Source: Cornus controversa (taxonomy: Eukaryota; Streptophyta; Magnoliopsida; Cornales; Cornaceae). From it: a DNA stretch of 64,000 bases. Shown here piece by piece: positions 43,962 to 47,756 of this stretch. Every line of letters starts with the position of its first letter. The first letter of the stretch is position 1. A model generated the notes under the pieces. That model saw nothing but the letters and a program-made list of their open reading frames with translations. It was not told the origin of the DNA and did not search any database. Made by a program: the position numbers and the translations under genes. The stretch covers positions 15,006,755 to 15,070,754 of the forward strand of contig CM048853.1 of NCBI GenBank assembly GCA_026545225.1, in the 5' to 3' direction.

Positions 43962-46900
43962 ATGCAAGGTCGTCGTTCTGTGGCTGATCCTTTGATACCT
44001 CTTGATCCTGAGCCTGAACGTACTCTTAGACAACAGAGGAACATCCCTGTTGACACCAGTGTGCAAGAGGAAGAAATAATTGAAGACATGGCAGAAGAGA
44101 GGAATAATAACCTTGTTCCTAATGCTGATGGAGAAAGAGCTAGATTGCTTAGGGACTACTATGTTCCTGAAACATATACCTCGCCAGCAGGTTTTCAACT
44201 GCCCAATGTCACAGCACAGAATTATGAGATCAAGTCCAGCATTATTCAGATGCTACCATCTTATTTTGGGCTGACTCAAGAAGACCCTTACAAGCATCTG
44301 GATGACTTCATTGAAGTGTGCTCAACTACAAAAATTCACAACTTCTCTGAAGATGCTTTCAGAATGAGACTTTTTCCATTCTCTTTGAAAGACAAAGCAA
44401 AGTATTGGTTCAACTCCCTACCGGCTGGTTCTATCACGACTTGGACTCAGATGCAACATGAGTTTCTCAAGAAGTATTTTCCGATAGGGAAGACCAATCA
44501 GTTCAGACGTGCTATCACTGGTTTCTCCCAACATGAGGGGGAACAATTTTATGAGACATGGGAAAGATTCAAGGACCTTCTTAGGAAGTGTCCCCATCAT
44601 CAAGTTCCTAAGTGGCAACTAGTGCAGAGTTTTCATGAAGGGCTCACAGAAGCCAACAGACAGATGGTTGATGCGTCATGTGGAGGTACTTTTATGTTGA
44701 AGAGTGAAGAAGAGGCATGGACCTTATTTGAAAATCTTAGTGACAACTCTCTACAACATGTGTCCTCTACTCGTTCTAGCAGACCTGCCACTACCAGGAA
44801 GACTGATGGGATTTTTGAGGTTGGTGCTTCAGAAGCTATGCCAACTGATATTGATTTAATTGCACAGAAGGTAGCAGCAATTATGGCTGCCAATCAAACT
44901 CCTTCTGCTTCAAATTCTTCATTGCTAGGCCCGTGTGAATTCTGCTCTAGTCCTATGCATAATGTGAGCAATTGTCCTTCAATGGGGCAATTTTCTGATA
45001 TTCAACATGAGCAAGTTCAAGCTACTTTCACTAGACCAATGAATCCTCCACGAGGTAATACTTACAATCCCACATGGAGGAATCATCCTGGGTTTTCTTA
45101 CAGTAACCAAGGGGCAGCAATGCAACCATCATATCAACCTAGGACTTTTGTGCCTCAACAGCAATATCAAACACAAAGTCCTATGGCCCAAAGAATTTCT
45201 GCTATTGAAGACAAGCTGACTCTTACCTTGTCTAAATTTGACAAGCTTGATTCTCTTATAGAGACAGTGCAAGCTACTGCAGCAACAGTACAATCTACAG
45301 TTCAGCTAGTGCACTCGCATTCTCAATCCATTGCCAAACTGGAATCTCAGTTTGGACAGCTTGCTACTTCATTGAGTAGAAGAGAAGAAGGGAAGCTCCC
45401 TAGTCAACCAATTGCTAATCCAAGAGGGATGCAAGCTTCCACAAGCAACCCACACCATGAGCAAGTGCAAGCCATTACCACTTTGAGAAGTGGGAAAATA
45501 ATTGACAATAAGGTGGGTGAGAAGAAAGAAGAAGAAAAAGTGATCACAAGTCCAAGTGCTGAAATTCCTTATGAGCCCAAGGCTCCTTTCCCACAACGTT
45601 TTCTTGAAGCATCTAAATTGGGGAAGCAAGGGGACAAGCTGCATGACATGATGGAGGTGTTTCGCCAAGTGAAGATTAATTTGCCACTCCTTGATGCCAT
45701 CAAGCAAATTCCTCCTTATGCAAAATTTTTGAAGGACTTGTGCACTCAGAAAAGGCGTTCTAAAAGCCATGTGCCAAAGAAAGTAATGCTGCCACAACAA
45801 GTAAGTTCAATAATTCAGCAGTGTACTCCTCCCAAGTACAAAGATCCTGGTGCTCCAACTATCTCATGCATTATTGGGGAGCACCATGTGGATAAAGCTC
45901 TTCTTGATTTGGGTGCAAGTGTGAATTTGCTACCCTATTCAGTTTACTTACAATTGGGCTTGGGAGAATTGAAGCCTACCTCGGTGGTATTACAATTTGC
46001 AGACAGATCAACAAAGCAACCCCGAGGAATCATAGAAGATGTGCTCATTAAAGTGGACAAGTTCTACTTTCCTGTTGATTTCATTGTACTTGACACTGAG
46101 CCGGTTCACAATCCGAAGAGGCACATTCCTGTGATCCTTGGTCGACCTTTCTTAGCTACTGCTGATGCTTGCATAAATTGTAGGTCAGGGATCATGGATA
46201 TTTCCTTTGGCAACATGAAGGTTAAACTTAATATTTTCAATGCTGTTGAGAATCCTCCAGATCAGACTGATGTCTTCTTCATGGACTCTGAAGAGGTGAT
46301 TGAATCTGTAGATGAAGTAAGGGTGCAAGAAAAACAGAAGGAGAAGAAGGTGTTTGAAGATCAAATTTCTACCATGGTGGTAACTTCTGTATGCACTACA
46401 CTCTCCAAAACACTTCAGAGGGAGCAATTGTTTGGAGTGTCCGACAACTCCACACCATGGTATGCAGATATTGTGAACTATTTAGCCACGGGAAAAGTGC
46501 CAAGAGACTGGACCAAGCGAGAACGTGATCGATTCTTCTCTAAAGTTCATCATTACTTTTGGGAAGATCCAGAGTTATTTAAATATTGTCCAGATCAGAT
46601 TATTCGGCGATGTGTCCCAGACCATGAGTTTCAAGATATTCTCAAGTTCTGCCATTCATTGGCATGTGGAGGCCACTTCAGTGCAAGGAAGACAGCGGCA
46701 AAGGTACTTCAATGTGGATTCTTTTGGCCTTCTCTGTTTCACGATGCATATGTTTTCTGTAAGACTTGTGATCGTTGTCAAAGATTGGGTTCAATGTCGA
46801 GGCGTGATATGATGCCCATGAGCCCCATTCTGGTGGTGGAGATTTTTGATGTTTGGGGAATTGATTTTATGGGACCCTTTCCACCTTCTTTTGGCTACGA

Positions 46901-47756
46901 ATATATTCTGGTTGGAGTGGATTATGTCTCCAAGTGGGTGGAGGCCATTGCAACTCGAACCAATGATCACAAGGTGGTAATCAAATTCATGCATGAGAAT
47001 ATTCTGAGTCGATTTGGAATTCCTCGAGCCTTGATCAGTGATGGTGGTACTCACTTTTGCAATAAATTCTTGAGAGGTTTGCTTGCTAAATATTCCGTGA
47101 CACATAAGGTGGCAACGCCTTATCATCCTCAAACAAGTGGGCAAGTAGAGTTGTCCAATCGAGAAATTAAGCATGTTCTCGAGAAGACAGTGAGACCAGA
47201 TAGAAGAGATTGGTCGTTACGACTGAGCGAAGCACTATGGGCGTATCGGACTGCTTACAAGACCCCTATCGGTATGTCACCATATCGGTTAGTGTATGGG
47301 AAAGCATGTCATCTTCCAGTCGAGATTGAGCACAAGGCACTTTGGGCAATTCGAAAATTCAATTTCGATGCAAAAAGAGCTGGGGAAGAGAGGAAGTTGC
47401 AATTGAATGAATTAGAAGAGTTTAGACGTGATGCTTATGAAAGTTCACGAATTTACAAGGAGAGGACGAAAGCATTTCATGATCGACACATCTCACGAAA
47501 GTCCTTCTCTCCAGGTGATAAAGTGTGGCTCTTCAATTCCAAGCTTCGGTTGTTCCCCGGAAAATTGCGTTCAAGGTGGGATGGACCATTCCAAGTGATT
47601 TCGGTTTTTCCTCATGGTGCCGTGGAAATTCGAAGCTTTAGAGATAATACTTTGATGAAAGTTAATGGCCAAAGGTTGAAACATTGTGTGGAAGGATGTG
47701 TGCCAAGAAGAGACGTGGAGTCCGTCGACTTGACGGATCCCATCTATCCGACTTAA
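43962..47756 (+). CDS. gag-pol: Intact gag-protease-integrase polyprotein, no RT
   Basis: 1264 codons from ATG 43962 (MQGRRSVADP) to a TAA. Domains in order: gag capsid region, about residues 80-270; zinc knuckle C325, C328, H333, C338; Gln-rich and heptad-like stretch, about 370-470; aspartic protease with D649-L-G and ILGRPFLAT; a short charged linker rich in Lys/Glu (about 775-800); then, from EQLFGV (residue 821), the integrase. The integrase has H898, H905, C936, C939, then D968, D1027, E1063 (D-35-E), and a C-terminal GPY-like module. Element A has RT and RNase H, about 550 residues, between the equivalents of the linker and EQLF. Here they are absent, yet the frame is continuous. The product could form particles, process itself and integrate cDNA, but could not make cDNA. 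Confidence 0.95.
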   Translation: MQGRRSVADPLIPLDPEPERTLRQQRNIPVDTSVQEEEIIEDMAEERNNNLVPNADGERARLLRDYYVPETYTSPAGFQLPNVTAQNYEIKSSIIQMLPSYFGLTQEDPYKHLDDFIEVCSTTKIHNFSEDAFRMRLFPFSLKDKAKYWFNSLPAGSITTWTQMQHEFLKKYFPIGKTNQFRRAITGFSQHEGEQFYETWERFKDLLRKCPHHQVPKWQLVQSFHEGLTEANRQMVDASCGGTFMLKSEEEAWTLFENLSDNSLQHVSSTRSSRPATTRKTDGIFEVGASEAMPTDIDLIAQKVAAIMAANQTPSASNSSLLGPCEFCSSPMHNVSNCPSMGQFSDIQHEQVQATFTRPMNPPRGNTYNPTWRNHPGFSYSNQGAAMQPSYQPRTFVPQQQYQTQSPMAQRISAIEDKLTLTLSKFDKLDSLIETVQATAATVQSTVQLVHSHSQSIAKLESQFGQLATSLSRREEGKLPSQPIANPRGMQASTSNPHHEQVQAITTLRSGKIIDNKVGEKKEEEKVITSPSAEIPYEPKAPFPQRFLEASKLGKQGDKLHDMMEVFRQVKINLPLLDAIKQIPPYAKFLKDLCTQKRRSKSHVPKKVMLPQQVSSIIQQCTPPKYKDPGAPTISCIIGEHHVDKALLDLGASVNLLPYSVYLQLGLGELKPTSVVLQFADRSTKQPRGIIEDVLIKVDKFYFPVDFIVLDTEPVHNPKRHIPVILGRPFLATADACINCRSGIMDISFGNMKVKLNIFNAVENPPDQTDVFFMDSEEVIESVDEVRVQEKQKEKKVFEDQISTMVVTSVCTTLSKTLQREQLFGVSDNSTPWYADIVNYLATGKVPRDWTKRERDRFFSKVHHYFWEDPELFKYCPDQIIRRCVPDHEFQDILKFCHSLACGGHFSARKTAAKVLQCGFFWPSLFHDAYVFCKTCDRCQRLGSMSRRDMMPMSPILVVEIFDVWGIDFMGPFPPSFGYEYILVGVDYVSKWVEAIATRTNDHKVVIKFMHENILSRFGIPRALISDGGTHFCNKFLRGLLAKYSVTHKVATPYHPQTSGQVELSNREIKHVLEKTVRPDRRDWSLRLSEALWAYRTAYKTPIGMSPYRLVYGKACHLPVEIEHKALWAIRKFNFDAKRAGEERKLQLNELEEFRRDAYESSRIYKERTKAFHDRHISRKSFSPGDKVWLFNSKLRLFPGKLRSRWDGPFQVISVFPHGAVEIRSFRDNTLMKVNGQRLKHCVEGCVPRRDVESVDLTDPIYPT

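Follow-up and report, generated by a model that had tools for sequence, protein, structure and literature searches.

The 64-kb stretch of Cornus controversa DNA analysed here (the window, C9:15006755-15070754) contains a long terminal repeat (LTR) retrotransposon, B4, in which a 3795-bp open reading frame (ORF) at 43962..47756 encodes Gag, protease and integrase but neither reverse transcriptase (RT) nor RNase H. An older copy of the same element, M, and a related element, B1, also lie in the window, and its left end is occupied by element A, which carries RT and RNase H. Genome searches were performed on the 772-Mb source assembly, where two further families, D and E, bear on the interpretation of B4.

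B4 displays the features by which LTR retrotransposons are recognized, namely two LTRs, which are identical at insertion, a primer-binding site that we take to be that for tRNA-Asp, a polypurine tract, and a short target-site duplication (TSD). The LTR pair differs by four mismatches over 1,506 bp and is flanked by a 5-bp TSD; B4 is a recent insertion. The Athila label applied to B4 is our presumption from resemblance, the element having no RT by which it might be placed in a tree.

An earlier note on this DNA had described the ORF as an intact gag-protease-integrase frame that had shed its cDNA-making enzymes. ORF and Pfam checks (cut-off E <= 0.001) agree with this description, and the zinc knuckle, the DLG of the protease, and the HHCC (aa 898-939) and DD35E (D968-D1027-E1063, the last two being separated by 35 residues) residues of integrase were all located intact by a motif check. 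No RT or RNase H domain was detected in the B4 ORF by Pfam at this cut-off. When pieces of RT and RNase H were run against the window by tblastn, RT was matched in element A and nowhere in B4 on either strand. Profile hidden Markov models (HMMs) applied to 1,505 six-frame fragments of both strands likewise found RT/RNase H in element A only. The RNase H piece gave a weak match to B4 and M (33-34% over 73 aa) through its last residues, which reach the start of integrase. An RT hidden elsewhere in B4, the outcome that the note itself had named as fatal to its proposal, is therefore rejected by both the tblastn and the six-frame HMM scans. Accordingly, B4 falls outside the autonomous Ty3/gypsy elements, in which gag, protease, RT, RNase H and integrase occur together.

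The linker that joins protease to integrase gave seven candidates when used as a protein query, none of them at E <= 10. Its right half was compared with RNase H tails by shuffling, and the score was reached by 0 of 2,000 shuffles for the tail of A, which supports a relationship, by 36 of 2,000 for that of D, which supports it weakly, and by 872, 319 and 264 of 2,000 for three other tails, which lend it no support. This half of the linker may be what is left of an RNase H tail after decay, a likeness that is suggestive only.

Table 1. Features of B4 and of the related elements M and B1, in window coordinates
Feature	Position	Strand	Remarks
Left TSD copy of B4, GATAC (5 bp)	42307..42311	.	
5' LTR of B4, 1,506 bp, TGATA...ATCA	42312..43817	+	99.73% identity to 3' LTR
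Primer-binding site TGGCGCCGTTGCCGGGG	43823..43839	+	Common to B4, A, B1, D and E
RT-less gag-protease-integrase ORF, ATG start, 1264 aa	43962..47756	+	
Retrotrans_gag, aa 136-229	44367..44648	+	Pfam
CCHC zinc knuckle, aa 325-338	44934..44975	+	Motif check
Aspartyl protease, aa 636-730, DLGAS	45867..46151	+	Pfam 21.3 bits, below the family cut-off of 24.3; motif
Junction linker, aa 768-820	46263..46421	+	EQLFG next, at aa 821
Integrase_H2C2 zinc-binding domain, aa 885-941	46614..46784	+	Pfam
Integrase catalytic core (rve), aa 963-1056, DD35E	46848..47129	+	Pfam and motif
Integrase tail, last 35 residues	47649..47756	+	Retained by integrase-less E; match runs on to 47973 at 99.4%
ORF3, 407 aa	48646..49869	+	Weakly Transposase_32-like; Pfam below cut-off
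Short inverted repeat TTGCTA / TAGCAA, 6-base loop	51514..51531	+	Ahead of polypurine tract
Polypurine tract TTTGGGGGTG	51540..51549	+	
3' LTR of B4	51550..53055	+	
Right TSD copy of B4, GATAC	53056..53060	.	
M, older copy of the RT-less element	17428..28641	+	LTRs 17428-18938 and 27132-28641; ORF region 19084-22878
B1, related element (gag, protease, pre-RT remnant)	12624..18938	+	RT, RNase H and integrase not found

Copies of the RT-less element and constraint on their proteins

With the full ORF as query, the best 37 of 23,458 first-look candidates were scored, and all 37 places proved to be full length, 35 of them free of stops. A 166-aa protein query across the B4 junction (best 150 of 8,174 candidates scored) gave matches that spanned the junction in every case and were spread over many contigs; the 1,265-codon frame was present in 75 of the 150, with an internal TAG in one of these. 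The junction was also spanned by all 40 matches scored with a 201-bp DNA query (best 40 of 821). The common junction is more than chance, and the case in which the RT-less ORF exists in only two copies, raised beforehand as a reason to abandon the idea of a family, is excluded by the 150 junction-spanning matches.

Sequences of 26 of the 36 B4-type copies other than B4 were retrieved, the copies for study having been chosen by protein score, and all 26 contained the 3,795-nt ORF without inner stops. The 3' LTR fell inside the retrieved stretch for 23 copies, and a 5-bp TSD was found in 22 of these; in the remaining copy, the match to the LTR at the 5' side starts no earlier than base 886. Over the 22 complete LTR pairs, 17 mismatches were counted in total (0-3 per pair, with none in 11 pairs), which at a substitution rate of 1.3e-8 per site per year corresponds to a mean insertion age of ~20,000 years, the value for B4 being ~100,000 years. 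The family has thus been recently active, as had been supposed. Changes private to one element among B4 and the 22 copies were present in both LTRs 66 times and in one LTR 14 times, as results from reverse transcription of one template. The B4 type, with one fused ORF and recent amplification, conforms to an in-frame internal deletion of pol. That its lack of RT stems from an artefact of assembly or annotation, or from an RT placed elsewhere in the element, is scarcely credible given the negative six-frame searches, the junction shared by all 150 scored matches, which lie on many contigs, and the TSDs in 22 of 23 copies.

M can be aligned with the B4 ORF along its whole length of 1,265 codons with no indel. 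The claim of the earlier note that both elements carry the same ORF holds for the common reading frame, but the ORF of M is broken by in-frame stops at codons 678, 686 and 1165. Between B4 and M, dN/dS for the whole ORF was 0.145 (bootstrap 0.095-0.22), with values of 0.20 for gag, 0.17 for protease (in an interval that overlaps the linker by 18 codons) and 0.065 for integrase, in which 28 synonymous changes are set against 7 non-synonymous ones. One-sided binomial tests against the site numbers gave P values of 3e-13 for integrase, 5e-6 for gag and 4e-4 for protease. The linker is under no such constraint (dN/dS 0.91, interval 0.24-2.8; P 0.58). The values for the three protein parts lie far below 1, near which they had been expected to fall if the proposal were wrong, and neutral decay of the RT-less ORF is rejected on this comparison. 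Given the low dN/dS, gag, protease and integrase would have been kept functional after the loss of RT if the junction arose once and without later exchange; the B4-type proteins apparently stayed under purifying selection.

Of the variants shared by at least two of 27 young ORFs, 40 were synonymous and 3 non-synonymous; for singletons the respective counts were 22 and 13, where 2.6-3.4 non-synonymous changes per synonymous one are expected under neutrality; these counts are biased toward synonymous variants because the copies were picked by protein score. It might be argued that the B4 proteins are irrelevant and that the element is carried passively, with its open frame a relic, as elements without a coding region (LARD, TRIM) also spread. 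The constraint on the B4-M pair, above all in integrase, and the shared variants, with the bias just stated, make this very improbable.

The B4-M dS of 0.077 places the shared junction at ~3 million years at the same rate. This is a better basis for its age than the LTR divergence of M, which is an unsafe date because the 5' LTR of M appears to be the B1 3' LTR as well. Two subfamilies of the B4 type were distinguished, which are 3.6% apart in nt 2300-2860 (the junction and the integrase start) and 0.4-0.5% apart elsewhere. Four mosaic copies (L025, L045, L055 and L059) combine both subfamilies and mark recombination near the RT-less junction; this pattern points to template switching among RNAs that lack RT.

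A sister family lacking integrase

A genome query with ORF3 of B4 returned 102 scored places, all at >=98% identity, of which 47 lay behind a listed B4 junction, 1 behind a B1-type protease and 54 behind neither. Three of these 54 were probed, and all three contained an open RT with FMDD, at a spacing from ORF3 that leaves no room for integrase. They belong to the family termed E. In a comparison into which 108 of 150 E-junction matches were entered, 32 of the 54 places lay behind an E junction and 22 were unplaced. Protein identity of ORF3 behind B4-type and E-type junctions was 98-100% (rounded), and the three probed E-type ORF3s were listed at 100% (rounded) with scores slightly under that of the self-match.

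One of the three probed copies lies at C9 ~8.88 Mb, and in it RNase H is joined through SFPDEQLFG directly to the final 35 residues of integrase, the frame ending at the same stop as in B4. Across this 3' side, 325 nt are 99.4% identical to B4 47649-47973, and on the 5' side B4 is matched at 99.3% by 301 nt that take in the end of the LTR, the primer site, the leader and the start of gag; the LTR 3' terminus common to both is represented by the last 114 nt of the E LTR. An ATG is present where an open frame of 1,422 predicts it, and the protein begins MQGRRSVADPLIPL, like that of B4. Approximately 404 integrase residues, including the zinc finger and the catalytic core, are missing in frame from E. 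B4 in turn has lost ~561 residues from the stretch of RT and RNase H, and the DNA at EQLFG, GAGCAATTGTTTGGA, is identical at the two junctions. B4 and E are reciprocal in-frame pol deletions in sister families that are near-identical where compared.

The E junction (RNase H, EQLFG, integrase tail) was spanned by all 150 scored matches (best 150 of 6,906 candidates), which included the three probed copies (frames 1,422, 1,422 and 743). Open frames of 1,422 were present in 58 of the 150 and of 1,421 in 6, and 75 reached at least 1,378. Two E-junction matches, at C5:11722144 and C6:13415778, lie in open frames of 4,857 and 3,112 in place of the usual 1,422.

By sequence, E is the nearest RT source to B4 that was found. 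The earlier note had called for an RT-containing parent with near-identical LTRs; E has the RT, and its ends are 99.3-99.4% identical to B4 in 626 nt of one copy, but it is without integrase. The wider proposal, that the B4 family is a specialized parasite or partner of an autonomous Athila that supplies RT, stands in so far as RT and RNase H alone were lost while gag, protease and integrase are under apparent selection, and has to be modified in that the nearest RT source itself wants integrase. For this reason the partnership may be reciprocal and not parasitic; because the intact undivided family D is present, a parasitic relationship may still apply. A narrower version, in which B4 alone is a specialized RT-less parasite of an autonomous Athila and E a by-product with no role, accords with the signals that B4 shares with D and A and with an RT-less junction in at least 150 places. 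It is improbable, given that the E junction also occurs in at least 150 places, with the exact frame in 58 of the 150 scored, and that the closest RT belongs to E.

A proposed divided pol and its alternatives

On balance, we lean toward B4 being one half of a two-component LTR retrotransposon with a split pol, in which E would supply RT and B4 integrase. The B4 type would make Gag-protease-integrase, and the E type would keep RT and RNase H in a frame that starts like B4 gag and ends in the B4 integrase tail. Because the two types have matching 5' signals and begin gag alike, their RNAs and polyproteins could enter the same particles, where the RT/RNase H of E would copy both RNAs, protease would mature the particle, and the integrase of B4 would insert both cDNAs. 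A common Gag, co-packaging and the mutual dependence of B4 and E are here inferred from sequence. The two anatomies, the abundance of both junctions and the numerous intact frames are shown by the sequences, as are, for the B4 type, a signature of reverse transcription, TSDs, recent insertion and purifying selection. A stricter version, an obligate bipartite retrotransposon whose undivided parent is gone or rare and whose two Gag-protease genomes, one with RT/RNase H and one with integrase, are co-packaged and mobilize each other, is put forward tentatively and may well prove too strong.

Several points weigh against such a division between B4 and E. The pair is known here from its DNA alone. 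The copy counts are lower bounds from best-scoring samples and amount to no census, and dN/dS comes from one pair, B4-M, on the assumptions of a single origin of the junction and no later exchange with RT-bearing relatives. The comparison of E with B4 covers 626 nt of one E copy, at the LTR end to gag start and at the integrase tail with the region behind it, and 75 of the 150 E-junction frames are shorter than 1,378, many of them far shorter. Furthermore, family D is complete and abundant: of the 150 RT matches scored, 37 lie in open frames of 1,878 aa (frames of >=1,850 were present in 42 of the 150, including 3 at 1,850 that are nearer to A), and D shares with B4 the primer site, the polypurine tract with its preceding inverted repeat, and the LTR termini TGATA/ATCA. 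D is the main alternative helper and could serve both B4 and E; an undivided element with B4/E-type ends may also survive.

These properties of D favor an explanation in which B4 and E are independent deletion derivatives living off an undivided autonomous element, either D or an undetected whole B-type parent, with each keeping proteins that help in cis and neither needing the other. Mouse IAP 1Delta1 is a documented case of this kind (PMC7411935, PMC6466679). Two identical 1,668-bp LTR-containing stretches are present at one D locus, and a third derivative, the B1 type, has spread although RT, RNase H and integrase were not found in four of four sampled copies. We regard independent deletion as possible, short of probable. 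It leaves unexplained why two such similar families should have suffered complementary enzyme losses with clean frames. Moreover, D is far from B4 (integrase DNA is ~70% identical, and the LTRs aligned only at the first bases, 1e-5), whereas E is 99.3-99.4% identical where compared.

LARD, TRIM and TR-GAG elements have no coding region, or gag only, and B4 lies outside these classes by its intact gag-protease-integrase ORF. The closest parallel to B4 taken singly is IAP 1Delta1, in which an in-frame gag-pol deletion also created a fusion ORF that has been recently amplified; most new IAP insertions are of the deleted form, proteins are needed in trans, and the fusion protein helps in cis, according to the passages drawn on here (PMC7411935, PMC6466679). 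In the mouse, however, full-length IAPs serve a single deleted form, whereas B4 and E are two forms with reciprocal losses of RT/RNase H and integrase.

In wheat, the high-copy "semi-autonomous" RLG_Sabrina_SA and RLG_WHAM encode gag-protease or gag only, without RT and integrase, and have their primer site and LTR termini in common with the autonomous RLG_Wilma (PMC9744471, in the portion used here). B4, having integrase with HHCC and DD35E, falls outside this semi-autonomous class. Compared with the wheat system, B4 adds an intact integrase and E adds RT/RNase H; the compared stretches of the two are near-identical and not dissimilar, and neither element is complete. The same primer site, by which partners are recognized in that portion of PMC9744471, is present in B4, E, D, A and B1. 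Further criteria given there are common LTR termini, simultaneous activity, a similar subfamily structure and a conserved promoter sequence; of the termini, the 3' one is common to B4 and E, and TGATA...ATCA to B4 and D, while the observation that bears on simultaneous activity is the ORF3 identity of 98-100% across the B4 and E types. Similarly, non-autonomous RLG_Quinta of Einkorn wheat is reported to add Gag to a system shared with RLG_Cereba, with conserved LTR ends and primer site, but unlike either member of the B4/E pair RLG_Cereba is complete (PMC11302176, in the part cited). Whole Athila families of Arabidopsis are without pol, with ORFs under purifying selection and recombination between families; they keep gag or gag and env, and no protease-integrase or protease-RT half is described in the passages of that paper relied on here (PMC2410132). 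Particles of yeast Ty1 and Ty3 contain dimeric RNA and accept proteins in trans, as stated in the text consulted (PMC4974528).

A search of openly licensed literature by exact phrases, in titles and abstract openings, returned no account in which a family without RT but with integrase is paired with a sister that has RT and no integrase. Among the 120 database proteins listed, only 2 cover 100% of the queried protease-integrase region, P0117 of Citrus sinensis and P0057 of Populus alba. Both contain integrase and a protease-like stretch with no RT domain; their junctions are other than that of B4. They may represent genuine elements without RT or, alternatively, gene models in which RT was skipped. 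A scan for viral contigs gave nine pattern matches, none of which was confirmed.

Coding non-autonomous LTR elements are already known, and we rate the anatomy of B4 and E as a new variation on them. The usual picture of non-autonomous LTR elements in general is that of parasites living on a complete one. If mutual dependence between B4 and E is true, the arrangement would be categorically new, a retroelement counterpart of a multipartite virus, and the pol functions of one retroelement would be divisible between two mobile genomes and kept so by selection. The pair offers a natural system for the sharing of particle proteins, for integrase and RT acting in trans in plants, and for the origin of multipartite genomes, and it makes the question of parasite or partner directly testable for coding non-autonomous elements.

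ORF3 and neighboring elements

In the Athila lineage, the third ORF is env-like, with transmembrane segments. The best Pfam match of ORF3 was Transposase_32 at 36 bits, below the cut-off of 45, and no transmembrane stretch was found in it, the highest 19-residue hydropathy being 1.13 against the usual threshold of 1.6. ORF3 is therefore not called env-like, contrary to the initial description of the B4 family as keeping such a protein, and the env-like third ORF typical of Athila is not provided by it. Athilas without env have been reported, so this trait is optional (PMC2410132, in the part cited).

In B1, a pre-RT remnant is followed directly by the region behind integrase. B1 belongs to the LTR family of B4 and has the same primer site, gag and protease and no RT, but unlike in B4 integrase was not found, in B1 or in four of four further copies. 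A genome query with the B1 protease and pre-RT gave 151 matches, with listed frames of <=888 aa. In the four sampled copies (77-90% identity to the query), RT and RNase H were likewise not found and the structure was B1-like; the B1 type is therefore another form of the B4 LTR family without RT and integrase, and a more diverse one. At C7:15721054-15723842, an ORF3 listed as 100% (rounded) identical to that of B4 stands behind a B1-type protease, which suggests that B1-type and B4-type elements exchanged sequence there.

The 5' LTR of M is immediately preceded by a polypurine tract and so resembles the 3' LTR of B1, and the other LTR of M is nearer to that of B1 (96.8%). Both observations rule out the view of M as a plain second element equipped with its own LTR pair, and the B1 3' LTR and the M 5' LTR appear to be one. 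A 490-bp stretch occurs twice in M (25201-25690 and 25712-26196, 88% identical) and once in B4.

The perfect inverted repeat TTGCTA...TAGCAA before the polypurine tract is present also in D (L061 ~1138-1173) and in A (window ~11218-11253), with one change in the loop in A; the LTRs of B4, D and A otherwise differ. Examples of D lie at C1:124.60-124.62 Mb (L061, L062 and L067), and an interrupted relative occupies ~53602-64000 of the window on the minus strand.

Head-to-tail pairs, spaced at 7.4-9.7 kb, were observed for the B4 type (C2:30.83, C4:21.87, C4:25.19, C6:3.55, C6:5.98, C7:1.80 and C9:11.26 Mb) and for the E type (C1:117.79, C5:5.97, C5:25.83, a triple, C6:25.93, C8:55.66 and C9:12.05 Mb). 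This spacing is consistent with tandem elements that share an LTR, which seems to be the arrangement of B1 and M in the window.

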